A stretch of 64,000 nucleotides of DNA from Scheffersomyces stipitis CBS 6054. Its lineage: Eukaryota > Ascomycota > Pichiomycetes > Serinales > Debaryomycetaceae. Below, piece after piece: positions 44,401 to 64,000 of the stretch (position 1 is its first letter; every line of letters starts with the position of its first letter). A program made the position numbers and the translations under genes. The notes beneath the pieces were generated by a model. It saw only the letters and a program-made list of their open reading frames with translations, did not search any database and was not told where the DNA came from. The stretch covers positions 3,446,248 to 3,510,247 of the forward strand of contig NC_009068.1 of NCBI RefSeq assembly GCF_000209165.1. The letters are read 5' to 3'.

Positions 44401-47009
44401 ACAATAACAGTGTCAGTACCACCAACGGTGTCTGAAATAGTCACTGTAGTTGTCTCTGTACCAGTCCATGTGGATGTGATGGTTGTTTGACTGTTGGCTG
44501 TAGAAGGTACTTCGACGATAACAGTGTCAGTACCACCGACGGTGTCTGAAATAGTCACTGTAGTTGTCTCTGTACCAGTCCATGTGGATGTGATGGTTGT
44601 TTGACTGTTGGCTGTAGAAGGTACTTCGACGATAACAGTGTCAGTACCACCAACGGTGTCTGAAATAGTCACAGTAGTTGTCTCGGTACCAGTCCAAGTA
44701 GACGTGATGGTGGTTTGACTGTTGGCTGTAGAAGGTACTTCGACAATAACAGTGTCAGTACCACCAACGGTGTCTGAAATAGTCACAGTGGTAGTTTCCG
44801 TTCCAGTCCATGTGGACGTGATGGTGGTTTCGCTATTTGAAGGAACTTCGACGATAACAGTGTCAGTACCACCGACGGTGTCTGAAATAGTCACAGTAGT
44901 TGTCTCTGTACCAGTCCATGTGGATGTGATGGTTGTTTGACTGTTGGCTGTAGAAGGTACTTCGACGATAACAGTGTCAGTACCACCAACAGTGTCTGAA
45001 ATAGTCACAGTAGTTGTCTCGGTACCAGTCCAAGTAGAAGTGATGGTGGTTTGACTGTTGGCTGTAGAAGGTACTTCGACAATAACAGTGTCAGTACCAC
45101 CAACGGTGTCTGAAATAGTCACAGTGGTAGTTTCCGTTCCAGTCCATGTGGACGTGATGGTGGTTTCGCTATTTGAAGGAACTTCGACGATAACAGTGTC
45201 AGTACCACCGACGGTGTCTGAAATAGTCACTGTAGTTGTCTCTGTACCAGTCCATGTGGATGTGATGGTTGTTTGACTGTTGGCTGTAGAAGGTACTTCG
45301 ACGATAACAGTGTCAGTACCACCAACAGTGTCTGAAATAGTCACAGTAGTTGTCTCGGTACCAGTCCAAGTAGAAGTGATGGTGGTTTGACTGTTGGCTG
45401 TAGAAGGTACTTCGACAATAACAGTGTCAGTACCACCAACGGTGTCTGAAATAGTCACTGTAGTTGTCTCTGTACCAGTCCATGTGGATGTGATGGTTGT
45501 TTGACTGTTGGCTGTAGAAGGTACTTCGACGATAACAGTGTCAGTACCACCGACGGTGTCTGAAATAGTCACTGTAGTTGTCTCTGTACCAGTCCATGTG
45601 GATGTGATGGTTGTTTGACTGTTGGCTGTAGAAGGTACTTCGACGATAACAGTGTCAGTACCACCAACGGTGTCTGAAATAGTCACAGTGGTAGTTTCCG
45701 TTCCAGTCCATGTGGATGTGATGGTGGTTTCGCTATTTGAAGGAACTTCGACGATAACAGTGTCAGTACCACCGACGGTGTCTGAAATAGTCACAGTAGT
45801 TGTCTCTGTACCAGTCCATGTGGACGTGATGGTGTTTGTGGGATTAGAAATGCACCCAGCAGTAATAGTGGATGTACTGGTGAACCAAGAGTTGCTTTTG
45901 TCTGTTGAAACTATGATGTCATCAACTTCTGTACATGTAAATCCATCAGAATTGGTGGAAGTTGCAGTAGTGGTGAACTCAGTGGCACTTGTTCCTGGAG
46001 CAGGTGGAAGTTTCTTGCATGGTTGACATACCGATGGAACTGAATTTGGTGGAGGACCAGAGTAGGTTACTGCACCAGCAGGAATCCGAATTATTCCTGT
46101 GTTGTCATCAGTGACAATTTTGAATAGAGATGGATTGTAACCTAAACCAATATTGAAGTTCATGGGCAGTAGAACGCCGCCACCACGAAGAGTCAAGATA
46201 CCGGTTTTTGTATCGTATGTATAACCATTGAGTAAAGGAGGAAGATTAACAAGTGTGACATCTAAACCAATTTTGTTCCCATTTCCAAAGCCAGCTACAT
46301 TGTATGTCTTCGAAAAACTGATGGCATGAACTTGGATGGAAGAAGCAGAATCTGCCAAATAAAAGACCTGATTGGTGTCAATATTCAAAAGGGTATTCGA
46401 TAAGAAAATACTGGAGTTTTCATCTAAAGTAATGCAACCAGTCCCTACAATATTCGTTCTCTGAGTGTACAATTCATTGAAAAAACAAATCTGGCCGTTA
46501 TTTTTTATGTCAAGACCCGATGTACCCAATTCTATACTTGCTGAAGATCTTGTTTTTTGATAGAAAACCAACAAACCGTTATTGTTCCATATTGGGGCGG
46601 TAATCTGGATATTAGGTGAACCGAATGAACCGTCTGCGCCTAAGTACATTTCACCATTATTGGTGAACGAGATACCGACAAGACTGTATGTTGGAGCGAG
46701 TAAAGATTGGACCGCATTTAGAGATATAATACCGTCATTAGTAAGAGAACCCAGCAAAAGAGTTACCAGCATAGAAAGTAAAGGATTGAGACCGCTGATA
46801 TATAATCCAGAGCCAGAACCGACATCAACATTACCTGCAAATGCGGTAGCTAGGTTATCGATGATTGACCAATAGACGCCATCTTCAATGATTGTATCCC
46901 CAAGTCCAAGAGAGATAGCCCCACGATCTATAGTATTTGTAGTGATAGTTCTAGCCATCACGCTAGTTATCAAGGTAAGCACTGCAAGAATGTATTTTCG
47001 AAACAACAT
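38418..47009 (-). CDS. Giant HYR/IFF-type GPI-anchored cell-wall adhesin
   Basis: A 2,863-residue secreted surface protein. Residues 1-19 form a signal peptide (MLFRKYILAVLTLITSVMA). Residues 20-330 resemble the Hyr1/Iff hyphally-regulated cell-wall N-terminal domain (TNTIDRGAISLGLGDT, DGVYWSIIDN, NNGLLVFYQ). A Cys-containing segment (CQPCKK) follows. Then come 17 units of a 36/38-residue Thr-rich repeat (about 390-1024), about 33 units of a 49-residue Ser/Thr-rich repeat (about 1033-2656), a spacer, and a Gly-Ser-Asn-Thr array (about 2740-2810). The protein ends in a short hydrophobic tail (STISVMVVSFIVILMI) after a small-residue segment (EGSAGKAKSS), as in GPI anchoring. The role in adhesion is family knowledge. 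True repeat copy number depends on assembly quality. Confidence 0.9.
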   Translation of the reverse strand: MLFRKYILAVLTLITSVMARTITTNTIDRGAISLGLGDTIIEDGVYWSIIDNLATAFAGNVDVGSGSGLYISGLNPLLSMLVTLLLGSLTNDGIISLNAVQSLLAPTYSLVGISFTNNGEMYLGADGSFGSPNIQITAPIWNNNGLLVFYQKTRSSASIELGTSGLDIKNNGQICFFNELYTQRTNIVGTGCITLDENSSIFLSNTLLNIDTNQVFYLADSASSIQVHAISFSKTYNVAGFGNGNKIGLDVTLVNLPPLLNGYTYDTKTGILTLRGGGVLLPMNFNIGLGYNPSLFKIVTDDNTGIIRIPAGAVTYSGPPPNSVPSVCQPCKKLPPAPGTSATEFTTTATSTNSDGFTCTEVDDIIVSTDKSNSWFTSTSTITAGCISNPTNTITSTWTGTETTTVTISDTVGGTDTVIVEVPSNSETTITSTWTGTETTTVTISDTVGGTDTVIVEVPSTANSQTTITSTWTGTETTTVTISDTVGGTDTVIVEVPSTANSQTTITSTWTGTETTTVTISDTVGGTDTVIVEVPSTANSQTTITSTWTGTETTTVTISDTVGGTDTVIVEVPSTANSQTTITSTWTGTETTTVTISDTVGGTDTVIVEVPSNSETTITSTWTGTETTTVTISDTVGGTDTVIVEVPSTANSQTTITSTWTGTETTTVTISDTVGGTDTVIVEVPSTANSQTTITSTWTGTETTTVTISDTVGGTDTVIVEVPSNSETTITSTWTGTETTTVTISDTVGGTDTVIVEVPSTANSQTTITSTWTGTETTTVTISDTVGGTDTVIVEVPSTANSQTTITSTWTGTETTTVTISDTVGGTDTVIVEVPSTANSQTTITSTWTGTETTTVTISDTVGGTDTVIVEVPSTANSQTTITSTWTGTETTTVTISDTVGGTDTVIVEVPSTANSQTTITSTWTGTETTTVTISDTVGGTDTVIVEVPSNSETTITSTWTGTETTTVTISDTVGGTDTVIVEVPSTANSQTTITSTWTGTETTTVTISDTVGGTDTVIVEVPSDTSSSETDHFTDYTTTFTTTNSDGSVSTETGDVIVSTDSDGSWYTTTSIISESSTGPEFTEYTTTFTTTNSDGSVSTDTGDVIVSTDSDGSWYTTTSIISESSSGPEFTEYTTTFTTTNSDGSVSTETGDVIVSTDSDGSWYTTTSIISESSSGPEFTEYTTTFTTTNSDGSVSTETGDVIVSTDSDGSWYTTTSIISESSSGPEFTEYTTTFTTTNSDGSVSTETGDVIVSTDSDGSWYTTTSIISESSSGPDFTEYTTTFTTTNSDGSVSTETGDVIVSTDSDGSWYTTTSIISESSSGPEFTEYTTTFTTTNSDGSVSTETGDVIVSTDSDGSWYTTTSIISESSTGPEFTEYTTTFTTTNSDGSVSTETGDVIVSTDSDGSWYTTTSIISESSSGPDFTEYTTTFTTTNSDGSVSTETGDVIVSTDSDGSWYTTTSIISESSTGPEFTEYTTTFTTTNSDGSVSTETGDVIVSTDSDGSWYTTTSIISESSTGPEFTEYTTTFTTTNSDGSVSTETGDVIVSTDSDGSWYTTTSIISESSSGPEFTEYTTTFTTTNSDGSVSTETGDVIVSTDSDGSWYTTTSIISESSTGPEFTEYTTTFTTTNSDGSVSTETGDVIVSTDSDGSWYTTTSIISESSSGPEFTEYTTTFTTTNSDGSVSTETGDVIVSTDSDGSWYTTTSIISESSTGPEFTEYTTTFTTTNSDGSVSTDTGDVIVSTDSDGSWYTTTSIISESSSGPEFTEYTTTFTTTNSDGSVSTETGDVIVSTDSDGSWYTTTSIISESSSGPEFTEYTTTFTTTNSDGSVSTETGDVIVSTDSDGSWYTTTSIISESSTGPEFTEYTTTFTTTNSDGSVSTDTGDVIVSTDSDGSWYTTTSIISESSSGPEFTEYTTTFTTTNSDGSVSTETGDVIVSTDSDGSWYTTTSIISESSSGPEFTEYTTTFTTTNSDGSVSTETGDVIVSTDSDGSWYTTTSIISESSSGPEFTEYTTTFTTTNSDGSVSTETGDVIVSTDSDGSWYTTTSIISESSSGPDFTEYTTTFTTTNSDGSVSTETGDVIVSTDSDGSWYTTTSIISESSTGPEFTEYTTTFTTTNSDGSVSTETGDVIVSTDSDGSWYTTTSIISESSSGPEFTEYTTTFTTTNSDGSVSTETGDVIVSTDSDGSWYTTTSIISESSSGPDFTEYTTTFTTTNSDGSVSTETGDVIVSTDSDGSWYTTTSIISESSTGPEFTEYTTTFTTTNSDGSVSTETGDVIVSTDSDGSWYTTTSIISESSSGPEFTEYTTTFTTTNSDGSVSTETGDVIVSTDSDGSWYTTTSIISESSTGPEFTEYTTTFTTTNSDGSVSTDTGDVIVSTDSDGSWYTTTSIISESSTGPEFTEYTTTFTTTNSDGSVSTDTGDVIVSTDSDGSWYTTTSIISESSTGPEFTEYTTTFTTTNSDGSVSTDTGDVIVSTDSDGSWYTTTSIISESSSGPDFTEYTTTFTTTNSDGSVSTETGDVIVSTDSDGLWYTSTSIISESSTLIICRRDESDCVSSTGPDFTEYTTTFTTTNSDGSVATETGDVIVSTDSDGSWYTTTSIISESSTGPEFTEYTTTFTTTNSDGSVSTETGDVIVSTDSDGLWYTTTSILDVSSRVSQGFNTYWNATSSSVGTPIGEETTTYIATDTLVQTVCHRGSPCVEFTVTADGSPVLATPAVEEGSTGTTPSSSPEFGSGTNTGSNTGTNTGSNTGSNTGSNTGSNTGSNTGSNTGSNTGSNTGSNTGSNTGSNTGSNTGSNTGSNTGSTFTPPQVGNGDSSSNVGDVTPTVVVPLEGSAGKAKSSTISVMVVSFIVILMI
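38578..38787 (-). repeat. 12-bp tandem array encoding Gly-Ser-Asn-Thr
   Basis: About 17 near-identical 12-base units (GATCCAGTGTTA on the plus strand) within the adhesin gene. They differ by rare single-base changes (TTGG for TTAG, GTTCC or GTCCC for GATCC). The unit is a multiple of three, so length changes stay in frame. Confidence 0.95.
39040..43910 (-). repeat. 147-bp tandem array (about 33 units) in the adhesin gene
   Basis: Consecutive units are exactly 147 bases apart (for example GTGTACCACG at 39541 and 39688), encoding 49 residues around FTEYTTTFTTTNSDGS and STDSDGSWYTTTS. Units are nearly identical, differing at a few synonymous sites and at three protein positions (E/D, S/T). One unit (about 39330-39375) carries a 15-residue insertion with two cysteines, which breaks the array near its C-terminal end. 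Confidence 0.95.
43936..45840 (-). repeat. 108/114-bp tandem array (17 units) in the adhesin gene
   Basis: Seventeen units of 36 or 38 residues share the core TSTWTGTETTTVTISDTVGG. Two unit ends alternate: VPSTANSQ (114 bases) and VPSNSE (108 bases). The short type is at units 1, 6, 9 and 15, so distances between short units are 564, 336 and 678 bases. This indicates block duplication or conversion, not simple one-unit slippage. Confidence 0.93.
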
Positions 47010-50902: not shown

Positions 50903-52690
50903 TCAATGATTAATTAATTGAAAAGCTCTAATAATTTCATAGACGCCGTAAGCACCTGGGTCTGGAGGAAATTCAGTTTGATCATCAATTCCAACGTATG
51001 TGGCTCTTCCTAACTTTGGAGTTAGTTTTCTGGTGTTTTCAGCGGCCTCTTGGGCCACTGAAATGGCCAACTCAATATCATGGGTTTTGTAAAATTCCTC
51101 AACAAAAGGAACTAAAACGTCCATTATAGTTCTGTCGCCTATTCTGGCGGTGGAAAATTTGTTCAATACTTCAGTAGCTTTTTTCAAAGCTTCGGAATAT
51201 GTAAACGTGTTAACTGAATCTGTGATTTCGATCAACTTCTCAAAATTATTAAGGAATCCTCTTACAAAGATGAACAAAATGGCACCTAATGTACCTCCCA
51301 TGTCCTCTTTGATAATTTTCAATACTACTTGTATTGCATTTATAACAGACCCATCTTCAAAAGCACCTCTTTCCAAAGCTTGAATCACAGCATTTGCTCC
51401 TGTCTCCAAAGTCTTGCCACAATCTCCATCACCCATTTTAGTATCCCAAACAGTGATGTCAGGCTCCCTGTCGATTACATTTTTAGCAGAAGTCTTAATA
51501 ATTCTTTTAAGCAAAGCTTGATCAATTCTAACGTCAACGTGGGACGAAGTTTCCATTTCTTCGTATCCTTTAAAATCCTTAATAATTCTACTCTTGTAGG
51601 TGCTTCTTCCAGGATTACTATAATGTGAGCGTGCCCAACCACTTGCAACTGTTGGGTGATCAAGTAAATCAAATAAAAGTGTGGTACCGAATTCCTTTCC
51701 AGCAGCCTTAGTAACGTTGAATAAGGATATAGTAAAGATTGGTGCGTTTAAGGAAGTAAGAAAAGGTCCTGAGTAAACCCTAGATGGGGAAATATTGTAA
51801 TTTGTCTCAAGAGCCTCAACAACTGTGAATAACAACCCTTTTTCCTCAATAATTGGAATTCCTCCAAGATTATTAAATAGAAGAACTATTTCGTCGTCTT
51901 CATCATAGTTGAAGAAGCCCCGATCCACATCGGTTTCATCAAGAATATATTTCAATAATACAGATACCAACTCTTCGTTTGTTGGGATAAAATTCAATTT
52001 GAGCACCCCTGGTTCGTTGTGAATTCCTAGACCTATTTCAATTTGGTTTGCATTGAGCTTACCGTAGTCCCCTTCAGTCGAATGCCCAGGTATATGAACA
52101 TGATCCAAACCAGCATTTATTGAAGCAATGTTTTTGGCAACACAAGATCCAATCTGATAAATAAAGTCAATCGAGTAACCAAGATTGCTAGCAGCACCCA
52201 TAATTTTAGACACCAAGGTGTAACCGGCTAATGTACGGCGGCCAACTTTAGCACCCTTTTGTCTTCCGACAGCAACATCGTCCGCAACTTTCAAAAGTTT
52301 GACCTTATCGTCTCCAAATCTGGAAATTAATTCTTGGGTTGCCATTCCAAAGTACAAGTTATCGCCAGTATAATTGGTGATAATAAAAATGACACCGGCA
52401 TCGGAATGAGTCACCTTCTCGGCAGCCAAAATGTTGTTGCAATTGGAGCAAGCGAACACTTCACCTTGAGCTGCACTTGTTAACATACCAGTGCCAACTA
52501 ATCCAGACCATCCTGGTTCATGTCCTGAACCTCCTCCACCAATCAACGAGACCTTTTTGCTATCGAACTGGTTGTTGAAGATCACTTTCTCTTTTTCTAA
52601 AAGGGACAAGTTGTCATTCTCGGTGAGTAAACCTTTGAGGCAGTTGGGAACCAATTGAGAAGAATTGGCGGGTAAAAAGTGTTTGTTCAT
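50903..52690 (-). CDS. Dihydroxyacetone kinase-family kinase (Dak-type)
   Basis: The 595-residue protein has the two-domain layout of eukaryotic ATP-dependent DHA kinases. The DhaK domain (1-345) has GGGGSGHEP at 51-59, NYTGD at 106-110 and GIHNEPG at 222-228, whose His224 corresponds to the residue that covalently holds the ketone substrate. The DhaL domain (about 385-595) has the metal site GDGDCG at 420-425. In the nucleotide-binding loop it reads MGGTLG (464-469), where MGG(S/T)SG is usual. The Leu is encoded by TTA, so it is real. No peroxisomal C-terminal signal is seen (ends QLINH). The substrate could be dihydroxyacetone or another short ketose; Yarrowia Eyk1, of this family, uses L-erythrulose. 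Palindromic CGG-N11-CCG sites lie upstream. Confidence 0.9.
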   Translation of the reverse strand: MNKHFLPANSSQLVPNCLKGLLTENDNLSLLEKEKVIFNNQFDSKKVSLIGGGGSGHEPGWSGLVGTGMLTSAAQGEVFACSNCNNILAAEKVTHSDAGVIFIITNYTGDNLYFGMATQELISRFGDDKVKLLKVADDVAVGRQKGAKVGRRTLAGYTLVSKIMGAASNLGYSIDFIYQIGSCVAKNIASINAGLDHVHIPGHSTEGDYGKLNANQIEIGLGIHNEPGVLKLNFIPTNEELVSVLLKYILDETDVDRGFFNYDEDDEIVLLFNNLGGIPIIEEKGLLFTVVEALETNYNISPSRVYSGPFLTSLNAPIFTISLFNVTKAAGKEFGTTLLFDLLDHPTVASGWARSHYSNPGRSTYKSRIIKDFKGYEEMETSSHVDVRIDQALLKRIIKTSAKNVIDREPDITVWDTKMGDGDCGKTLETGANAVIQALERGAFEDGSVINAIQVVLKIIKEDMGGTLGAILFIFVRGFLNNFEKLIEITDSVNTFTYSEALKKATEVLNKFSTARIGDRTIMDVLVPFVEEFYKTHDIELAISVAQEAAENTRKLTPKLGRATYVGIDDQTEFPPDPGAYGVYEIIRAFQLINH

Positions 52691-52867
52691 TTTTTGTCTG
52701 ACAATACTATATAGACGCCTCTGACATTTACGGAGACATGTATGAGAAAATCACAAATATATGTAATTGTTGCTTGTAAAAGGTTGGACAAAGTCCCAAG
52801 CATATTTTTCTACCTGTGTGTCTGATCCGAGTGGGGAATATACCTCTCCAGATCATCTGCCCATAGT

Positions 52868-52888
52868 TGCGGCTAAAATCTAGCCGCA
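52868..52888. promoter_or_regulatory. CGG-N11-CCG palindrome, site 1 upstream of the Dak-type gene
   Basis: The core is CGGCTAAAATCTAGCCG, with 8-base perfect arms (TGCGGCTA / TAGCCGCA) and a 5-base centre. It lies about 180-200 bases upstream of the kinase ATG. CGG triplets in inverted orientation 11 bases apart are the Gal4-type recognition pattern for dimeric Zn(II)2Cys6 activators. One such activator is encoded in this cluster. Confidence 0.7.
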
Positions 52889-53071
52889 GGACCCAAGCGC
52901 ATAGAGAGGGTCTTATAGGTAAATGTGCAAATGGTTTATTTCCCTAGTCATTTGGGTGCGTCAATGACAATTTTAAACAAGGCTTTTACAATTTGTGGGG
53001 CACGGCAACTCCAAATATCACTACCTCAATCTTAACCTCGTAATGGTAATTACGGTGGGTAGGGATGAGAA

Positions 53072-53092
53072 TGCGGCTAAGGTTTAGCCGCA
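53072..53092. promoter_or_regulatory. CGG-N11-CCG palindrome, site 2 upstream of the Dak-type gene
   Basis: The core is CGGCTAAGGTTTAGCCG, with 9-base perfect arms (TGCGGCTAA / TTAGCCGCA) and a 3-base centre. It sits about 380-400 bases upstream of the kinase ATG. It has the same arms and N11 spacing as site 1, so two independent copies of a complex palindrome exist in one intergenic region. Confidence 0.72.
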
Positions 53093-53540
53093 TATTGGTT
53101 TTGCAATCAGTGTATAAGATTAAATGATTATAATAATTGGCATCACAATAGGAAAATGATAGCGATATAGTATTATGGCAACAGTTACGAATACAGAAGG
53201 AAATCCAGGCAAACTGGAAAAGATAGACTCACTAATCAAGCAACATAATTCAATGAAAATTATAACTATTTGGCATCTACAACTATTGACTTAGTATTTG
53301 ATGACACGAAAAATTCTACCTTTCTTTAATAGAGGCTGAGAATCAGGATACATAGAGTTCCTTTGAATGACCTTATTATTACCGTCAGATTAAAGATAAG
53401 CTACTACTCCTGAGAGTGAGATTTCGTGAGAAATCTTCAATTTTTATGAAACAGATACAGTTCTCGTAGATGTTCCCTATTTTCGATTGTAAAAAAAATT
53501 CTCATAACTACTTTAAATAAATTTTGACTCATAGAAATGT

Positions 53541-55091
53541 TCACTCAACTTCAATATGCTCGATTATTGCTCCCTTATCAATTGAAGAGCTTGTGACTTC
53601 TTCTCTCTCGGACGATTCATAGTCGCGCTTAGAATCAACCATGTAACTTTTGTAATCAACCAAGCCCATGAAGATTGTTCTGTTCTCTGAGAACAAATCG
53701 TCAATGGCTTCTAAAGTAAGGTTCTTTGTCTCGGGAAAGAAAAAGTAAAACATTGGTACGAAGGAGAAGTTGCAGCACATAAAGATCAAATATGCTTTCC
53801 ACTTCAACTTTTCAATGATAGTTGGAGTGATCTCAACAACAAAGAAATTCCAAAGCCAGTTACTTGATGTAGCTAATGAAGATCCTTTAGCACGTGCATG
53901 AAGGGGGATAAGCTCTGAAATCATCAGCCATGGAATACAATTACCAGTGGAGCCGAAGACAAGTTGGAAAACGAAAAAGAAAGCCACAGCACCAGCTCCA
54001 CTGCTCTTCTTCAACTTTGGATTGTCTTGAAAACTTAATAAGATTGAAATTAGCATCATACAAACACCACAGCCAAAAGCTCCAACTGCTGAAGGCAATC
54101 TTCTTCCCATCCTATCAGCAAAGAAAGTAGGAACTAATGAACCAACAGTGAAACAGATGACGGCAACACCACCAAGAATTAGGGCCAAGTTGTCTTCGAT
54201 GCCAACACTGTTAATCAAAACAAATGTAATATAGTAATTAACTACATTAACACCACTCAACTGTTGCGCAAACATGCTCATGTATGCCAAGAAGACTCTG
54301 TATCCAGTTCTTGCCTTATCGGGCTTGAAAAGTTTTGCCCACGAGAAAGCTCCTTCTGAAGTTTCCAAAATAACAGCATCATTAATATCATTCCATTCCT
54401 TAAGAATGTCAGGATGATCTCCTGGCTTTCCAAAGACATAAGATAAAATTCTTTTGGCTTCTTCTTTCTCTCCTTTGTAAAACATGTATCTAGGGGATTC
54501 GGGTATTGTGAAAGTGAAACAGAAAACAACAAAGGCGAACACAATCTGAGAGGCAAGAGGAAGTCTCCATGCAATAGGACCAGAAGTGAAAGAAAGAGCA
54601 TAATCAAACCAATATGCATAGATTAAACCAACTCCAACAAACAATGCTTCTGAGCACACCAAACGTCCTCTAACTTTTGGAGGTGAAAGTTCTGCCTGAT
54701 ACATTGGACAAGTAGAAGTTTCCCAACCAGTTCCAAGCCCAGTGATAAATCTTCCAATCATCAATTGTTCAACTGAAAAGGAACTACATTGAAGAGCAAC
54801 ACCAATTGTGATAACTGTCATTGAGGAAGCAATTTTGCTTCTTCTGCCCATTCGATCACCAATGAAGAAGTTCATAACACAACCAAAAAAACACCCTAAG
54901 GTATAGATAGAAACGATAATACCTAAATAACTACCGGTGGGGTTTCCAAAAGTGTTTAGGAAGTCCTGGTTGTTAATAAGATTACCAATAATACCCTGTT
55001 CAATACCAAAAAGAATAAATGCCAATTCACAAGTGAATGTAACAGCGTAGCTTACTTGTTTGCCTGATTTCCAGATTTGAAAATACTTCAT
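53541..55091 (-). CDS. MFS sugar-porter-family transporter
   Basis: A 516-residue plasma-membrane transporter of the sugar porter family with about 12 hydrophobic segments. Signature motifs are GDRMGRR at 78-84 (loop 2-3), RFITGLGTGWETSTCPMYQA with ELSPPKVRG near 114-142, PESPRY at 197-202, QQLSGVN at 276-282 and PETKNLTLEAIDDLF near the end of the last helix. The motif wording (QQLSGVN for QQLTGIN) and the overall sequence are nearer to fungal polyol/disaccharide/Stl1-like porters than to the classic Hxt group. The substrate cannot be read directly. It is divergent from the polyol dehydrogenase with a shared 444-base promoter, which suggests it imports the same substrate. Confidence 0.88.
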   Translation of the reverse strand: MKYFQIWKSGKQVSYAVTFTCELAFILFGIEQGIIGNLINNQDFLNTFGNPTGSYLGIIVSIYTLGCFFGCVMNFFIGDRMGRRSKIASSMTVITIGVALQCSSFSVEQLMIGRFITGLGTGWETSTCPMYQAELSPPKVRGRLVCSEALFVGVGLIYAYWFDYALSFTSGPIAWRLPLASQIVFAFVVFCFTFTIPESPRYMFYKGEKEEAKRILSYVFGKPGDHPDILKEWNDINDAVILETSEGAFSWAKLFKPDKARTGYRVFLAYMSMFAQQLSGVNVVNYYITFVLINSVGIEDNLALILGGVAVICFTVGSLVPTFFADRMGRRLPSAVGAFGCGVCMMLISILLSFQDNPKLKKSSGAGAVAFFFVFQLVFGSTGNCIPWLMISELIPLHARAKGSSLATSSNWLWNFFVVEITPTIIEKLKWKAYLIFMCCNFSFVPMFYFFFPETKNLTLEAIDDLFSENRTIFMGLVDYKSYMVDSKRDYESSEREEVTSSSIDKGAIIEHIEVE

Positions 55092-55535
55092 TATTGTTTG
55101 CTGAAGTTAATAAACAATTGACTACGATTACGGATTTTCAAGAACTGGAATGTCTTTTTTCATATTTATACAAATCTGGGGTATGTACCAGTGCTCTTTA
55201 CAATGAAATGTGGAGAAGAAGGTCTATTGATTATTTCGATGCTTCATCCTACAAAGCACTATACTCCAATTTGTGGTGCACATAGTAAACTGAATTTGGA
55301 GATGTTAGACTAAATCTTGCGGCTAATTTATTACTCGGAATTATGTGTCTGAGTGATTGCCGCAAGTTAGTGGGGAACGTCTAAACGCACTCTTGTTTGA
55401 GAAATAGTAGACTATTTTATCTTGATTGAGAAAATTACTGAGAAGACCAATTCTTCTGCAAAATTTCATTTATTATATTTACTGCTAATCCCCCTTGTGC
55501 TAGCTTTATTTGAACTTCGAGTTAATCGCGCCACT
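55092..55535. promoter_or_regulatory. Divergent promoter of transporter and dehydrogenase genes
   Basis: Between the two start codons lies an 8-base inverted pair CTTGCGGC (55316-55323) and GCCGCAAG (55359-55366), 35 bases apart. The left arm continues as TTGCGGCTAA, as in the kinase palindromes. The right arm, read on the other strand, is CTTGCGGCAA, as in the transketolase and regulator promoters. An additional CGG lies at 55335-55337. Likely binding sites for the cluster regulator. Confidence 0.6.
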
Positions 55536-56681
55536 ATGTCCCCATCAAAAGAATCGTTGAAATTCTCCAAGGAGAACACTTGTCTAAAGCTTACTTCGGA
55601 TCGTCAATTGGTAATAGACAGCGAGCCAATTCCCATCTGTGGACGAAATGAAGTATTGGTTCATATCAAATGCACTGGTATCTGTGGATCAGATATCCAT
55701 GTTTGGAAGGCAGGTGGAATTGGAAATTTGCAACTTAAATCAGATTTGATTCTTGGACATGAGTGTTCTGGCGAAATCATTCATATTGGAAGTGAAGTAA
55801 CCGAAGACTTTGAGATAGGTAACAAGGTGGCTATCGAACCTCAACTTCCTTGTGGTATATGCTTCCTTTGCACCAACGGTAACATGAACTTATGTTTGAA
55901 TGTTGACTTCATGGGCATGCCTGGTATGCCCGGAAGGCTGCCTTCCATTCATGGAAGCATACAGAGATATAAGACATTGGATCCAAGGTTTGTTTACAAA
56001 CTTCCTGATAATGTGACTTACGAGGAAGGTGCTTTGGTAGAAGTTCTTTCTGTTGGTTATCATGGTATCCAGAAGGCAGGTGGTTTGGAATTGGGAAAGC
56101 CTTGTGCTATTGCCGGTTGTGGTCCAATTGGTTTGGCTACTTTGATTCTTGCTGAAGCAGCTGGAGCTTACCCAATAGTTGTAACTGATGTCTCTCAAGA
56201 GAAATTGAACTTTGCAAAGTCATTGGTTCCTTCCGTATACACTTACAAGGTTCAGACAAACTTGAGTCCAAAAGAAAGTGCAGAAAATGTTAGAAAACTC
56301 TTCGGTAAAACTGAGTACGAAATGCCTAGTGTAGTTTTGGAATGCACTGGTGTTGCTTCTTCTATCAATACTTGTGCTTACATTGTAAGAAGAAAGGGAT
56401 GCTTAACTATTTTGGGAGTTTCAGGTAGAAATGAGATTGATGGATTCCCATTCATGCAGCTTTCATTCGGGGAAGTCGATGTGAGGTTTATCAACAGATA
56501 CCATGACTCATGGCCACCTGTTATTAATTTGATCGCAAGTGGAAAGATTGATGTAAAGAAATTTGTCACTCATACCTTCCCTCTTGAAAAAGCTCACGTC
56601 GCTCTTGAAACTGTCAGCAACCCTGCTATCAGCACAATCAAGGTTATGGTTAAAGATGATGAAGATTCTCTAACCTTGTAG
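55536..56681 (+). CDS. Zinc-dependent polyol dehydrogenase (L-arabinitol/sorbitol/xylitol dehydrogenase family)
   Basis: An MDR-superfamily NAD-dependent dehydrogenase of 381 residues that should oxidise a sugar alcohol to a ketose. The catalytic zinc ligands are C50 (GICGSD), H75-E76 (GHE) and E169. Structural zinc cysteines are C106, C109, C112 and C120. The Rossmann motif GCGPIG is at 194-199, and D218 after VVT points to NAD rather than NADP. The sequence around ECTGVASSI, IDGFPFMQLSFGEVD and FVTHTFPLEKA resembles fungal L-arabinitol 4-dehydrogenases more than XYL2-type enzymes, but specificity is not certain. I start at MSPSKESL (55536), because the frame upstream opens only with TTG and would add a hydrophobic stretch. 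Confidence 0.87.
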   Translation: MSPSKESLKFSKENTCLKLTSDRQLVIDSEPIPICGRNEVLVHIKCTGICGSDIHVWKAGGIGNLQLKSDLILGHECSGEIIHIGSEVTEDFEIGNKVAIEPQLPCGICFLCTNGNMNLCLNVDFMGMPGMPGRLPSIHGSIQRYKTLDPRFVYKLPDNVTYEEGALVEVLSVGYHGIQKAGGLELGKPCAIAGCGPIGLATLILAEAAGAYPIVVTDVSQEKLNFAKSLVPSVYTYKVQTNLSPKESAENVRKLFGKTEYEMPSVVLECTGVASSINTCAYIVRRKGCLTILGVSGRNEIDGFPFMQLSFGEVDVRFINRYHDSWPPVINLIASGKIDVKKFVTHTFPLEKAHVALETVSNPAISTIKVMVKDDEDSLTL

Positions 56682-57315
56682 TTTTTAATTTATTATGCCG
56701 TATAGCTAATTTTGTATCAATAAAAAATATTCAGAGCACTTGGGTAAATGCATCGGCAAAAACATGAGCCAAAATGTTTCGGTATTCAGGATACGTTAAT
56801 TTGTTGACTGACACGCCGTCTTTAGAAACATCAAATAAGCTTGTTAAACATGAGCTGCTAAATTGACTCTAACATAATACAGCATGGCAACTTGCCACTT
56901 CTTGTACAGAGAGCACCTTCATGTATTAACGTGATATTCCATACAAGATTATTAAAGATGCGGCTCATGTAATTGTTCTGATTCCATTAAGAGGGGTAAG
57001 GACGCCAAAAAAGTAAAGGAGTACCATAAGAGAAAAAGCTTCCTACATGGTTATTACCAATTTAGTTGCAATAATGGTCACCATTTGTTGGGGTAGGAGG
57101 AGCGTATATTGGTAAACAGGAATTTTTGTTACAACCATTGAATTTGGATATATGCAACACAAGCGCGCGTTACGACAAAAGTTTCCAAATTCAGCTTGAA
57201 CGTTTGCGGCAAATTTAAGCGCAATTTGAGTAAATATTTAATGTTCCTGGATATCTATAAAATGATCAACAATTTCGTTAATACACGGAATCAGATTTTG
57301 ATAGTAACAAGCTAA
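56682..57315. other. Intergenic region upstream of the transketolase gene
   Basis: About 630 bases. It holds TGCGGCT (56959-56965), TTGCGGCAA (57204-57212) about 105 bases before the ATG, and a TATA box (TATAAA, 57256-57261) 55 bases before it. No other gene seen. Confidence 0.55.
57204..57212 (+). promoter_or_regulatory. TTGCGGCAA site in the transketolase promoter
   Basis: A nine-base match identical to sites in the transporter/dehydrogenase and regulator intergenic regions. An imperfect reversed half (GCGCAA) follows 7 bases later. Confidence 0.5.
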
Positions 57316-59418
57316 ATGACTCAGACTGAAAGACACAAAGATTTAGAAAACTATAAGATTCTTCACCCTTACATCCTAAAGGTGTTCAGAGTTTTGATTG
57401 CGGATCTCGTACAGCAATTCAATGGTGGACATCCAGGAGGTGCTATGGGTATGGCTGCAATTGGTGTTGCTTTGTGGAAGTATGTATTAAACTTCTCTCC
57501 AAACAACCCCGACTACTTTAACAGGGACAGATTTGTACTTTCGAATGGACATGCATGTTTGTTCCAATATGCTTTTCACCATTTAGTTGGTTACAAGCAC
57601 ATGACCATGGACCAGTTGAAAACGTATCATTCTACCCACTTGGAGTCTTACTGTCCTGGACATCCAGAAAATGAACACCCAGCTATTGAAGTTACCACTG
57701 GAGCCTTGGGACAAGGTGTTTCTAATGCAGTTGGTTTGGCTATTGCTAGTAAGAACTTGCAAGCTACTTACAACAAGCCAGGTTATGAAGTTGTTTCTAA
57801 CCATACCTTCTGTATGGTTGGTGACGCTTGTTTGCAAGAAGGAATTTCATTGGAAGCAATTTCTTTAGCAGGACACTTGGGCTTGAACAATTTAACAGTA
57901 ATTTATGATAATAACCAAGTGACTTGTGACGGCTCAGTTGATTTAACCAACACTGAAAACATGAATGACAAATTCAAGGCTTGCAATTGGAAGGTAATTG
58001 AAATTGAAAATGGTTCAGAGGATGTAATGGCAATTGTCGCTGCTCTTCAGAAATCTAAAGAGTCTTCGGATAAACCTACTTTCATTAATGTTCACACTTC
58101 CATTGGTATCGGTTCCAACATTGAAGGTCAAGCCAATGCTCATGGAGCTTCGTTTGGTGAAGCTGAAGTTGACAGACTTCATCAGGTCTATGGCTTCGAT
58201 CCAAAAAACCGTATTCATATTCCAGAAGACGTCTATCAATTCTTTTGTGATATTTCTTCAAGAGGTGATATCTTAGAAGTTGAGTGGAAATCGTTGGTTA
58301 AAAGGTATGGAGAGAATTATCCTGAGTTGGGTGCCGATTTTGCTAGACGTGTAAAGGGTGAACTTCCTGAGGATTGGGCTTCATTAATTCCTAAAGAGTT
58401 TCCAACTTCTGATACTGCCTCTAGAGCTTCAAGTGGTATGATTATTAATCCAATTTCTCTGGCAATCAATAGCTTGATTGTTGGTACTGCTGATCTTTCG
58501 CCGTCGGTTAACTTGGCATACAAAGATAAGTTGGATTTTCAAAACCCAAGAATTAAGACTACTTGTGGAATCAATGGAGACTATTCTGGAAGATATATTC
58601 ATTATGGGGTGAGAGAGCATGCAATGGCTGCAATCGCTAACGGTATTGCAGCTTTCAATCGAGGAACCTTCATTCCTTGCACTTCTACTTTCTTAATGTT
58701 TTACTTGTACGCTGCGCCAGCAGTTAGATATGGGGCCTTGTCGAAATTGCAAGTTATTCATGTGGCAACGCATGATTCAATTGGTATTGGAGAAGATGGT
58801 CCCACTCATCAACCTATTGCTTTGCCTGCATTGTATAGAGCAATGCCGAATCTCAACTACATACGTCCATGTGACTCACAAGAGGTAGCAGGGGCTTGGG
58901 AAGTTGCAATCCGCTCCAAAGAAATGCCAACTATTATTTCCTTGTCAAGACACAAGCTCACTCAATTTCCTCAGAATTCGAAGAGAGACCTTGTGGCCAA
59001 AGGTGCTTATTCTTTTCACAAAGAAGAAGACTCAATGTTGAACATTATTGGAGTTGGATCAGAAATGGTTTTCGCGGTTGAGTCAGCCAAGTTATTGAAT
59101 GATAGAGGAATCAAAACTTCAGTCATTTCGTTCCCATCTCAGTACCTATTCAACAAGCAGCCATTGGAATACAAGAGATCATTATTGAAAAGAGGAAAAG
59201 TACCTACTGTCGTTATCGAAGCTTACACTGCCAACGGATGGGAGAGATACGCTACTGCTGGTATTAACATGAAAACTTTCGGTAAATCTCTACCAGGCCC
59301 AGACACCTACAGGTACTTCGGATTCGAATCACTGACCATAGCTGACAAGATCGAACAATATGTTGCAGAGTGGCAAACTGATGACCAGATTCGCCTTGAG
59401 TTCCAGGATTTAAATTAG
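57316..59418 (+). CDS. Transketolase-family enzyme, dihydroxyacetone synthase-like
   Basis: A 700-residue thiamine-diphosphate enzyme. Motifs are GGHPGGAMG (37-45), the FNRDRFVLSNGHACLFQ stretch (68-84), the ThDP-binding GDACLQEG (169-176) with DNNQVTCDGSVD after it, the catalytic Glu434 in YGVREHAM, and HDSIGIGEDGPTHQP. Several segments (NRDRFVLSNGH, YNKPG, CMVGDACLQEG, DNNQV-CDGSVD) are closer to dihydroxyacetone synthase of methylotrophic yeasts than to ordinary Tkl. That enzyme moves a C2 unit from xylulose 5-phosphate to formaldehyde, making dihydroxyacetone and glyceraldehyde 3-phosphate. Unlike those peroxisomal enzymes it ends FQDLN with no PTS1 signal, so it is probably cytosolic. 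No alcohol oxidase is nearby. The true acceptor or donor may be another ketose from the neighbouring dehydrogenase. Confidence 0.88.
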   Translation: MTQTERHKDLENYKILHPYILKVFRVLIADLVQQFNGGHPGGAMGMAAIGVALWKYVLNFSPNNPDYFNRDRFVLSNGHACLFQYAFHHLVGYKHMTMDQLKTYHSTHLESYCPGHPENEHPAIEVTTGALGQGVSNAVGLAIASKNLQATYNKPGYEVVSNHTFCMVGDACLQEGISLEAISLAGHLGLNNLTVIYDNNQVTCDGSVDLTNTENMNDKFKACNWKVIEIENGSEDVMAIVAALQKSKESSDKPTFINVHTSIGIGSNIEGQANAHGASFGEAEVDRLHQVYGFDPKNRIHIPEDVYQFFCDISSRGDILEVEWKSLVKRYGENYPELGADFARRVKGELPEDWASLIPKEFPTSDTASRASSGMIINPISLAINSLIVGTADLSPSVNLAYKDKLDFQNPRIKTTCGINGDYSGRYIHYGVREHAMAAIANGIAAFNRGTFIPCTSTFLMFYLYAAPAVRYGALSKLQVIHVATHDSIGIGEDGPTHQPIALPALYRAMPNLNYIRPCDSQEVAGAWEVAIRSKEMPTIISLSRHKLTQFPQNSKRDLVAKGAYSFHKEEDSMLNIIGVGSEMVFAVESAKLLNDRGIKTSVISFPSQYLFNKQPLEYKRSLLKRGKVPTVVIEAYTANGWERYATAGINMKTFGKSLPGPDTYRYFGFESLTIADKIEQYVAEWQTDDQIRLEFQDLN

Positions 59419-59475
59419 TAAGTAGAAAATTATGTGGTATAGCTTCTCCCCGAGAATCCAAAATATATCTGTAAA

Positions 59476-59484
59476 TTGCGGCAA
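59476..59484 (+). promoter_or_regulatory. TTGCGGCAA site upstream of the cluster regulator
   Basis: Identical to the transketolase promoter site. It lies between the transketolase stop and the regulator ATG, about 210 bases before the latter, so autoregulation is possible. Confidence 0.45.
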
Positions 59485-59691
59485 TTATTTCCAAAAGTAG
59501 TAACCCCAAGTTACTGAAAATGCAATCAAAAAGTGCGGAGATCTCAGTGGAGTATTTTACAGTTGTACACAAAAGAAGTAGTATTTACAGAAAACATTTT
59601 CCAAATGATGAATAACAATTACATTCTTCCTGAGTACAATTGATTTCTTTCTCCTTCACCACAATTATATTTCTCTATATGGTTGTTTACC

Positions 59692-61884
59692 ATGAACACT
59701 AGCACTGAAAGGAGTTTCAAGCGAGTAAAAACTGGCTGTTTGAAGTGTCGAAAAAGACATAAGAAGTGTGATGAAGTTAGACCTAATTGTCTGTCGTGTA
59801 CAAAGAAAAAAGAAGTCTGTGAATGGCCAGTAAGCTATGGAAAGTTCCACAAGAATTCAACGTTCCAATTACCAGCCAACAAAGCTGTTCACAAAACAGC
59901 AACTACAAAGGAACTGAAAAAGTATTCCGAACATCTTGCTAACAATTTCAATCGGATGTCTCATTTAGAAGCAGAAGGAAACTTATCTAGTGAAGCAGAG
60001 ACGTTGCTCTCGATGCTGGTACCTAGATTAAATAAGTCCAAAAGCAATGGTGATATTCAAATTGAAAAGTCCATGTCAATAAGTAAGATTTCAACCCCTC
60101 CTCAAACTTCAAGCTTTTCACAATTACAAATTCTGCCAAAGTCTACTAGTAATCCTCTGGAATTCAATGCTTTATCGTTGAATAGAATATTGAATACTGA
60201 CCCAGATTCTGAGCAATTAGATGGATCAATAATACCAATAGACCCCAACATGGATGGATTGATAGATAGTCGCAATGGCTCCACAACCATATCCAATACT
60301 GATAAAAGTGAACCAAGCATATTTGAAAATATTTCCCCGAGTTCAGCTTCATATGATGACACATACTCATTTAGTCCAGAGTCAATAATGGAACCGTTCT
60401 TGCTTTACAACGAGTTGCACAATACTTTGAGAGAGTATATGTTTTCAAATGTTTCTTCTACAGCAGAAGTTTCAGAGAAAATAAATGGCTCCGATAACAT
60501 CATTTTTTGTCCCACTACTTCAAATAATATCGATAAAGTTGGCGAGCAAATTGAAGGAGATTCTTCACTGTCAAGGGCCAATAACAAACAAGTTGAGGAT
60601 GATTTAGATGCAACCAATGAGCGAGAACCCATTCCAAATAAATCTAATGAATTATTTAATGTACTTATCCACGAGCCCCCCGCGTTGACAGAAATGGAAA
60701 AGTTGTTCCTCTACAAGAACTACTTATATGAAGTTGCCCCATGGTTGGATATGTTTGATTATTCACAGCAATTTGGCATCACTATCCCCCAGCAAGCAAA
60801 TCTGAATGCAGCTCTCATGTTTGCCATTTATGCCGTTTCTTCAAGACAGATCGAGCTTACCAATCCAGATTATGACAAAGATAAAACAATCAAGATTTAT
60901 CAAGAATCTCTCAAATATTTGATTCCTACAGTAGAGCAAACAATGGATAGAGCTATCATTTCTTCTTGTGTTATTCTTTGTGTTCTTGAGATGATGTCAT
61001 CGTCTCCAAAAGAATGGCGACACCATTTGGAAGGTTGTTCTGCACTATTTAGGACCAATAACATTCATGGGTTCAGTGACGATTTGGAAAGAGGACTTTT
61101 TTGGTGCTATGCTAGAATGGATGTAAGTTCAGCAGTTATTGGAGAGCAGTCGACTGTACTTCCCACAGAGTACTGGTTACCTAAAGAATTCAAAATTAAA
61201 GATCTGAAAGAGTACTTTCAAAAAGAAAATAAACCTGATATGTATGCAAATTATATTGTCTTTCTTTGTTCCAGGGTTTTAAATTTGATCTCAAATGAGA
61301 CACCTAATTTTAGAGCTGAATGGGAAAGCTTATTTAGCGAGGTGGTTGCTTGGCACGTGAACCGACCTCCTGAATTGCAACCGTTCATGGAGTTTGAGCA
61401 CTTTCCCTTCCCAGGGCTTCTCTTTTTGAACGGGCCCGCCATTTCATCTAACCAATTATATCACATGGCGATAATACTCTTATCGCAGAACAAGCCAAGA
61501 CTTCTCAAAGTTAAGCCATCGAGGAGTGTAGTAAGTATAGCATTAATGTAGCCGATTTCAATCTCTCTACTAACGCAGACTCTAGAAATCCAACATCTGG
61601 CATGCCAAGCAGATTTGTGCCATCAGTTTGCACAATACCCACCAGTACGTATAAATTCCTTTTGTCTAACTACAATTGAACTACAGGATTGCTAACATTT
61701 TTTCAGTGGATGCTGGAACAACGCCCTACAGCCACTATGGATCGCCGGGAAGCTCCTCAGTAGCGAAGAAGAGCACACCATCATACTCAACCTCCTCGAC
61801 AAAATAGAATCTACAACGGGTTGGCAAATGAATTTCAGGGCGCGGGACTTAAAGAGGTTCTGGGATGGAAAGTTGGTTGAGTAA
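59692..61884 (+). CDS. Zn(II)2Cys6 transcription factor of the cluster, three exons
   Basis: I read exons 59692-61530, 61586-61644 and 61707-61884, giving 691 residues. The N-terminal zinc cluster has Cys16, 19, 26, 33, 36 and 43 (spacing 2-6-6-2-6) in TGCLKCRKRHKKC followed by DEVRPNC. A long linker rich in Ser and Asn follows. The C-terminal half is a Fungal_trans_2-type regulatory domain, as in Uga3, Lys14 and Arg81 relatives. The family's end block, IWHAKQICAISLHNTHH then GCWNNALQPLWIAGKLL, is recovered only after splicing. Read straight through, the frame stops at 61551. The frame before 59692 opens with TTG, so I use the ATG. A short upstream frame (59679-59702) overlaps the start. As last gene of the cluster, it is the obvious candidate regulator. 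Confidence 0.85.
61531..61585 (+). other. Intron 1 of the cluster regulator
   Basis: 55 bases, with 5' splice site GTAAGT, a perfect branch site TACTAAC (61568-61574) and acceptor TAG. A CAG right after the branch site is too close to serve. Using TAG restores the conserved reading frame (phase 0). Confidence 0.85.
61645..61706 (+). other. Intron 2 of the cluster regulator
   Basis: 62 bases, with GTACGT at the 5' end, branch site TGCTAAC (61690-61696) and a T-tract before acceptor CAG. It splits a His codon (phase 2) and joins NTH to HGCWNNALQPLW, which matches the family consensus. Confidence 0.87.
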
Positions 61885-63715: not shown

Positions 63716-64000
63716 CTTTTCACGTCTTGCGGTATGGATCTTTTCACGTCTTGCGGTATGGATCTTTTCACGTCTTGCGGTATGGATCTTTTCACGTCTT
63801 GCGGTATGGATCTTTTCACGTCTTGCGGTATGGATCTTTTCACGTCTTGCGGTATGGATCTTTTCACGTCTTGCGGTATGGATCTTTTCACGTCTTGCGG
63901 TATGGATCTTTTCACGTCTTGCGGTATGGATCTTTTCACGTCTTGCGGTATGGATCTTTTCACGTCTTGCGGTATGGATCTTTTCACGTCTTGCGGTATG
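63716..64000 (+). repeat. 24-bp telomere-type tandem repeat (about 11.9 copies), likely chromosome end
   Basis: Perfect head-to-tail 24-base units, each containing GCGGTATGGATC followed by TTTTCACGTCTT, run to the window edge. Candida-clade yeasts have long homogeneous telomere repeats (about 16-25 bases) with a GGTGT/GGAT-type core, and the GGTATGGAT and TCTT parts align with that pattern. Upstream, variant units such as GCGGCACGGGCCTTTTCACG (63705-63724) look like degenerate copies. The orientation places the chromosome terminus at the right. Confidence 0.88.

Follow-up and report, generated by a model that had tools for sequence, protein, structure and literature searches.

The right end of contig C1 of the yeast Scheffersomyces stipitis CBS 6054 raises a question of function: what is accomplished together by 5 adjacent genes that encode a Dak-family ketose kinase, a sugar porter, a polyol dehydrogenase, a transketolase of the dihydroxyacetone (DHA) synthase (DHAS) family, and a Zn2Cys6 regulator? 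We analyze these genes within a stretch of 64,000 nucleotides (NC_009068.1, positions 3,446,248 to 3,510,247), here called the window, which closes this 3,510,247-base contig in an assembly of 15,441,179 bases and 8 contigs. The genes occupy positions 50903..61884, as a first-pass annotation had claimed, and their subtelomeric setting is confirmed by a tandem array of 24-bp telomeric units (63716..64000), located 1.8 kb beyond the cluster, that ends the contig. The accessible text of PMC8546629 likewise describes 24-nt telomeric units, in a 15.4-Mbp genome of eight chromosomes. TKL1 of this genome fits the species too, matching PDB 5hje over its full 677 residues with 1532 bits, versus 1082 bits for 1gpu, the S. 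cerevisiae enzyme. Judged from its sequence, the cluster is real, and at its core is a pair of DHAS and dehydrogenase genes that is met again in other yeasts and in filamentous fungi. With a probability of roughly 0.55, it would be a regulon for dissimilating a polyol, or a ketose derived from it, by a DHAS-type transfer of 2 carbons (C2).

The answer bears on the role of DHAS proteins in non-methylotrophs. A yeast without methanol oxidase has DHA synthase genes, whose role is left open in the portion of PMC3866509 available. The linkage of DHAS to one dehydrogenase subfamily, together with the S. stipitis regulon, would point to polyol or ketose metabolism. If true, the enzyme on which yeast methylotrophy depends came originally from a pathway for plant sugars, and an industrial yeast harbors a C2-transfer route for unusual sugars.

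Central to the cluster is the transketolase gene (57316..59418, + strand), whose predicted product of 700 aa has no type 1 peroxisomal targeting signal (PTS1) and keeps the catalytic and phosphate-binding residues. This protein is 68-72% identical to proteins named dihydroxyacetone synthase, such as those of Yamadazyma tenuis, Wickerhamomyces ciferrii, and Cyberlindnera fabianii, versus 41% to TKL1, its sole other match in the genome; the earlier description as DHA-synthase-like is borne out. A tree of 55 rows places it in a 7-row group (100/99) nested in a 25-row group (99/99), which includes Y. tenuis, Priceomyces carsonii, W. ciferrii, C. fabianii, and C. jaroonii and leaves Candida boidinii, Kuraishia, Ogataea, and Lipomyces outside. 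By identity and tree position, the enzyme is a member of the DHA synthase family and not of the TKL1 type.

Conserved residues narrow the chemistry. When the window protein is aligned with 119 matches (together the best 120 of 7999), R359, S386, H469, D477, H481, and R528 (yeast TKL1 numbering) are kept in 120/120, H103 in 119/120, and H30 in 119/120 (one gap). We take these to be the residues through which yeast transketolase contacts donor, acceptor, and phosphate; because they are kept, a phosphorylated donor or acceptor is expected. The set also shows fixed differences from the yeast enzyme: R94H, G158A, D186N, I191C, N387V, G439T, and G440S. A PTS1-like C-terminal tripeptide is found in 0 of the 120, the window protein ending in EFQDLN; since the set stops at rank 120 of 7999, DAS proteins of true methylotrophic type may rank below it. 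According to the available text of PMC6052537, S. stipitis has no genes for a presumably peroxisomal transketolase, and that of PMC3364918 credits both P. stipitis and S. cerevisiae with DHA synthase. In the methylotroph Candida boidinii, DHAS-family proteins P0047 and P0065 end in DLN without PTS1, a C-terminus shared by P0045, P0046, and P0052; these ends suggest that non-peroxisomal DHAS exists there too.

The dehydrogenase gene (55536..56681, + strand) encodes a predicted zinc-containing medium-chain dehydrogenase/reductase (MDR). Its product carries C50, H75, E76, E169, C106, C109, C112, and C120, presumably the zinc ligands, and D218, which we take to be the Asp of NAD-type enzymes; its closest solved relative is L-arabinitol 4-dehydrogenase (LAD; 275 bits). 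Position 320 sets it apart. Asn occupies this column in all 120 matches listed, the window enzyme included, versus Phe in XYL2 and sorbitol dehydrogenase (SDH) and Tyr in LAD. We assume that the column is the substrate-choice position in LAD; by that residue, the window enzyme is not an ordinary xylitol dehydrogenase, SDH, or LAD. A 57-row tree places it in a 13-row group (94/94) with both Dak-linked and DHAS-linked members.

How often these genes travel together was gauged through protein entries from contigs of identical exact size, with the best 120 matches per query (119 for Dak). Such matches number 11 for DHAS-MDR (120 entries each) and 8 for MDR-Dak; control means, with sizes offset by 1-100 bases either way, are 0.03 and 0.055, and 0.04 for DHAS-Dak. 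Most entries match nothing. The 120th Dak entry, P0351, was not among the 119; its contig size of 1661965 is in neither the DHAS nor the MDR list. Because the S. stipitis database entries are short fragments (12853, 1916, 5361), the method misses this yeast's own cluster, and a missing match is weak evidence. Shared DHAS-MDR contigs, some from filamentous fungi, include those of 10,082, 15,779, 37,381 (W. ciferrii), and 90,167 bases. Two of the 11 pairs have neighboring locus tags: PRCAT...1448/1449 in Priceomyces carsonii and FE257_005679/005680 in Aspergillus nanangensis. On contigs of hundreds of kb or more, as in C. boidinii, Limtongia, Polytolypa, Periconia, and A. aculeatinus, the 2 genes are co-contig only, and Y. 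tenuis, one of the 8 MDR-Dak matches, has a contig >1 Mb. Parastagonospora nodorum, outside the 11 matches, has DHAS and MDR tags that both truncate to HBI09_0872. W. ciferrii has two Asn320 dehydrogenases (P0147 and P0153), one on a Dak contig and one on a DHAS contig. The dehydrogenase-DHAS pair, present in filamentous fungi and yeasts, appears to be the more ancient unit. Co-localization in other genomes had been set beforehand as a test of the cluster; the DHAS-MDR and MDR-Dak pairs are found elsewhere, which answers the test for these pairs and not for the full five-gene set.

Bacteria provide an analogous layout. Among 80 MDR loci kept from at least 568 relatives, 6 have a transketolase match, and 6 have Asn at the 320 column, none of the latter with a transketolase or Dak match. 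In two loci (L094 and L115), TRAP transporter genes, a polyol-type MDR, and a split transketolase all have the same orientation, so that transporter, dehydrogenase, and transketolase adjoin as they do in the window; identity of ~30-35%, the split transketolase, and Tyr at the Asn320 column mark these loci as not orthologous. No sugar kinase is among the genes annotated there. An FGGY kinase is found near bacterial locus L128, and a phosphofructokinase-family gene near L118.

A second line of evidence comes from the promoters of the cluster, 4 in number and 2,201 bp in total. The commonest 6-mer with at least 4 G/C is TGCGGC, with 9 copies distributed over all 4 promoters; TTGCGGC is likewise present in 4/4. 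Across 1000 dinucleotide shuffles, the maximum for any such 6-mer was 6, and 34 shuffles placed some such 6-mer in all 4 promoters. The motif was picked after inspection of the promoters, and the shuffle test over all such 6-mers compensates for this at the 6-mer level only. The extended form TTGCGGCWA has 5 matches in the window, every one inside a cluster promoter, against a whole-window expectation of 0.43; over the genome (15.44 Mb), it has 163 matches, versus 105 for the reversed control. By number, TGCGGC is unremarkable over the whole window (14 versus 7.75 expected, with 7 of 100 shuffles reaching 14); it is the concentration in the cluster promoters, not the window total, that is unusual.

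The sites take several forms. A perfect palindrome, TGCGGCTA-N5-TAGCCGCA, lies 178 bp upstream of the kinase start (52868..52888), and a second copy lies 382 bp upstream (53072..53092); these candidate regulator sites, 21 bp long, are the only 2 perfect copies in the genome. The divergent promoter common to the porter and the dehydrogenase contains two inverted TTGCGGCWA half-sites (55317..55365). Upstream of the transketolase gene are a TGCGGC half-site (56959..56964, + strand) and a TTGCGGCAA half-site 104 bp before the start (57204..57212, + strand). One half-site, again TTGCGGCAA, is carried by the regulator's own promoter, 208 bp upstream of the start (59476..59484, + strand). Candidate additional members of the regulon were rejected: palindrome matches with up to 3 mismatches number 17, versus 14 for the reversed control, and none was accepted; the best of them outside the cluster (C2:812999-813019, 2 mismatches) overlaps the 3' end of a gene that, by eye, resembles glyceraldehyde 3-phosphate dehydrogenase.

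The regulator gene (59692..61884, + strand) encodes a predicted protein of 691 aa with Zn2Cys6 and Fungal_trans_2 domains. Its frame reaches 61884, the end given by the first-pass annotation, only if two predicted introns (61531-61585 and 61645-61706) are removed. CGG-type inverted half-sites suit Zn2Cys6 regulators, and we infer that this protein binds the TTGCGGC-type sites. The shared motif, which agrees with the earlier claim of one pathway with its own regulator, points at the level of sequence to co-regulation of the 5 genes. Together with the DHAS-dehydrogenase linkage in other fungi, it makes them more than chance neighbors.

Gene families, conserved residues, the shared motif, the fungal linkage, and the kinase duplication described below are read from the sequence. 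From these we propose a pathway in which regulator binding, step order, cytosolic location, acceptor, and substrate are inferred. The Zn2Cys6 protein would bind the promoters of all 5 genes, its own included, and the porter would import the substrate. The NAD-dependent Asn320 dehydrogenase would oxidize the polyol to a 2-ketose. A cytosolic DHAS-type transketolase would then transfer the C1-C2 unit of the ketose to a phosphorylated aldehyde, for example glyceraldehyde 3-phosphate, with xylulose 5-phosphate as the result. Phosphorylation by the Dak kinase would act on the uncleaved ketose or, alternatively, on the three-carbon product of cleavage. Such a route, with a transketolase where an isomerase would otherwise stand, would suit ketoses that isomerases cannot convert into an aldose phosphate of the pentose phosphate pathway.

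The substrate that would fit best is D-apiitol with its ketose D-apulose; a tetritol also leads, and erythrulose, pentuloses, and formaldehyde are possible. Oxidation of D-apiitol would yield D-apulose, branched at C3, whose cleavage by transketolase would release DHA or DHA phosphate, respectively what a DHA kinase consumes and what it forms. In bacteria, the apulose-4-phosphate transketolase route (EC 2.2.1.13) combines a ketose kinase with transketolase cleavage in the presence of glyceraldehyde 3-phosphate; the transketolase is split-chain and supplied by other enzymes. This route resembles our proposal in its ketose kinase and transketolase, and differs in its split chains, unlike the window enzyme. 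A bolder extension, which we consider doubtful, is that fungi have an isomerase-free route for a branched or otherwise unisomerizable ketose (D-apulose from D-apiitol or D-apiose), with an Asn320 MDR supplying a cytosolic transketolase of the DHAS family. This would have been the ancestral job of DHA synthase, the peroxisomal formaldehyde-fixing enzyme of methylotrophic yeasts would be derived from it, and the re-tuned Dak copy, the porter, and the dedicated regulator would be later additions in S. stipitis.

The kinase gene (50903..52690, - strand) links the cluster to a second locus. Its predicted product, a Dak1+Dak2 ketose kinase of 595 aa, is one of 3 Dak proteins in the genome and is 71% identical to its closest relative, on contig C3. 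The 2 are sisters in the tree (100/99), with branches of 0.43 (window) and 0.18 (C3); dN between them is 0.21, and dS is beyond estimation by the NG86 method. By branch length and tree position, the window kinase is a fast-evolving, diverged duplicate of the C3 kinase. Of 193 positions conserved to at least 95% across 44 relatives, it differs at 13, versus at most 8 when the relatives are left out singly; the dehydrogenase (2 of 91) and DHAS (4 of 281) stay within their relatives' range. Among its changes are S81C and P82S, in a loop that reads SP in 117/117 other kinases and presumably contacts the substrate. His57, Asp110, and His224, which we take to be catalytic, are retained.

The C3 locus (C3:1805645-1813045) contains a Zn2Cys6 gene, a gene for a short-chain dehydrogenase/reductase (SDR), and the Dak kinase gene, which is divergent from an RpiB gene. 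This is the genome's sole RpiB match (C3:1812596-1813015), so the window cluster has no RpiB; a second TIM-type isomerase was not found, a genome search giving a single TIM match, on C7. The regulators differ in domain, with Fungal_trans_2 in the window and Fungal_trans on C3. NCBIfam names the C3 kinase glycerone kinase, like the window kinase, and the C3 isomerase ribose-5-phosphate isomerase; the latter scores 138.6 against a cut-off of 240 for D-erythrulose-4-phosphate isomerase. The locus plausibly serves erythritol, by a possible route that passes through D-erythrulose 4-phosphate and needs no TIM isomerase. TTGCGGC was not found in either of two C3 intergenic regions examined; two 7-mers, AGTGGGG and TACCCCA, are each common to both of these regions and to two of the four window promoters, through which the C3 and window loci may be under common control.

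These features recall the erythritol cluster of Yarrowia lipolytica (EUF1, EYI1, EYK1, EYI2, and EYD1), where, as in the window, a Dak-family kinase, a polyol dehydrogenase, and a transcription factor are clustered; the likeness proposed by the first-pass annotation holds through the Dak kinase. According to the accessible text of PMC10935855, a single promoter region serves both the kinase and the isomerase gene in Yarrowia, and the half-length transketolase-like gene YALI0D02277g is up-regulated by Euf1 (the pathway is described in the accessible text of PMC7232202). Unlike the Yarrowia cluster, the window cluster has neither an RpiB nor a TIM isomerase and itself contains a DHAS-type transketolase and a porter. 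The Yarrowia-like counterpart in S. stipitis is the C3 locus, whose dehydrogenase is an SDR. It was also suggested that the transketolase takes the place of the isomerases. RpiB and TIM matches confined to C3 and C7 agree with this for the cluster itself; since a Yarrowia-like locus also exists on C3, the window cluster would add a second route and not replace the first in this yeast.

The alternative that survives best is tetritol use of the Yarrowia kind, in which erythritol or threitol is oxidized to erythrulose and phosphorylated, RpiB from C3 leads to erythrose 4-phosphate, and DHAS acts as an extra transketolase on erythrose 4-phosphate and xylulose 5-phosphate. The sister relationship of the window kinase to a kinase facing an RpiB gene, the shared promoter of the Yarrowia kinase and isomerase genes, the control of a transketolase-like gene by Euf1, the 8 MDR-Dak contig matches, and the shared 7-mers all speak for it. 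We nevertheless regard it as unlikely: TTGCGGC, present in all 4 window promoters, is missing from the two C3 regions examined, the kinase has changed at an excess of conserved positions, the DHAS-MDR linkage in filamentous fungi goes unexplained, and the second TIM-type isomerase was not found in the genome. Erythritol as the sole answer was rejected, given the Yarrowia-like set on C3 and the two TTGCGGC-free regions there.

Formaldehyde fixation or detoxification has a poorer prospect. Here DHAS would join formaldehyde to xylulose 5-phosphate, Dak would phosphorylate the resulting DHA, and the dehydrogenase would supply or reduce a ketose. DHAS family membership and the glycerone kinase name fit this scheme, as does the assimilation of formaldehyde by DHAS and Dak in methylotrophs (accessible text of PMC3866509); in their xylulose-monophosphate route, DHA synthase belongs to the same transketolase family and DHA kinase is the next step. 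The window enzyme differs from the methylotroph DHA synthase in having no PTS1 and in adjoining a polyol dehydrogenase, and S. stipitis is reported to lack presumably peroxisomal transketolase genes. Alcohol oxidase and formaldehyde dehydrogenase genes are not reported for S. stipitis in the available text of PMC3364918, and formaldehyde would have no need of a sugar porter and a polyol dehydrogenase.

A pentitol pathway seems just as improbable. Xylitol, D-arabinitol, or ribitol would be oxidized to a pentulose, the direct C2 donor for DHAS, and Dak would phosphorylate the leftover triose. Xylulose-type ketoses do serve as transketolase donors, and the kinship of the dehydrogenase to LAD favors this scheme. 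Asn320, where XYL2, LAD, and SDH have Phe or Tyr, argues against it, and a gene resembling xylitol dehydrogenase, which we take to be XYL2, is already present at C1:3415993-3417084, so that pentitols need no additional route.

That the 5 genes are coincidental subtelomeric neighbors with no joint function is highly improbable, for although S. stipitis subtelomeres gather transporters and transcription factors (8/16 each, in the accessible text of PMC8546629) and the five-gene synteny was not found in the contig lists compared, the promoter motif and the pair linkage in other fungi stand against it.

The polyol or ketose regulon favored here also has points that weigh against it. NCBIfam names the transketolase plain transketolase (699, cut-off 682.25), with no DHAS model among the matches, and the kinase glycerone (DHA) kinase (577.5 bits, cut-off 574.95). 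The 13 departures of the kinase could reflect decay and not a new substrate. No DHAS-Dak contig-size match was found (119 Dak versus 120 DHAS entries), and a Dak match is found in 0 of the 80 bacterial MDR loci; with these absences, S. stipitis may be alone in combining the 5 genes. The assignment to apulose draws on chemistry and on bacterial enzymes; a literature search for "apiitol" gave nothing on fungal catabolism by title, and "apulose" is absent from the papers matched. No published description of the five-gene cluster was found in a literature examined largely without subscription papers.

The remaining cluster gene (53541..55091, - strand) encodes a predicted sugar porter of the major facilitator superfamily, 516 aa long and assigned by family match; the best other porters in the genome reach 35% identity over the full length and 37% over one 158-residue stretch. 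GC content at third codon positions is uniformly low in the 5 cluster genes (0.347-0.361), versus 0.477 (sd 0.061) for 16 further window genes. Values just as low occur in 2 of 7 genes from other parts of the genome (0.338 and 0.359), so we do not treat the low values as proving a shared origin. A plasmid search returned 691 records, every one <60% identical, and was uninformative. Between 47009 and 64000, the listing of open reading frames of at least 150 aa with an ATG start holds nothing beyond the cluster genes. Beside this interval, positions 38418-47009 (- strand) encode an adhesin-like protein of 2863 aa and hold two tandem repeats, one of 147 bp (~31 copies) and one of 114 bp (~17 copies). 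Further into the window, 21- and 63-bp tandem repeats at 23062-23606 encode YSPTSPS-like heptads at the end of a 1739-aa open reading frame; judged by eye, these heptads are probably the tail of RNA polymerase II.

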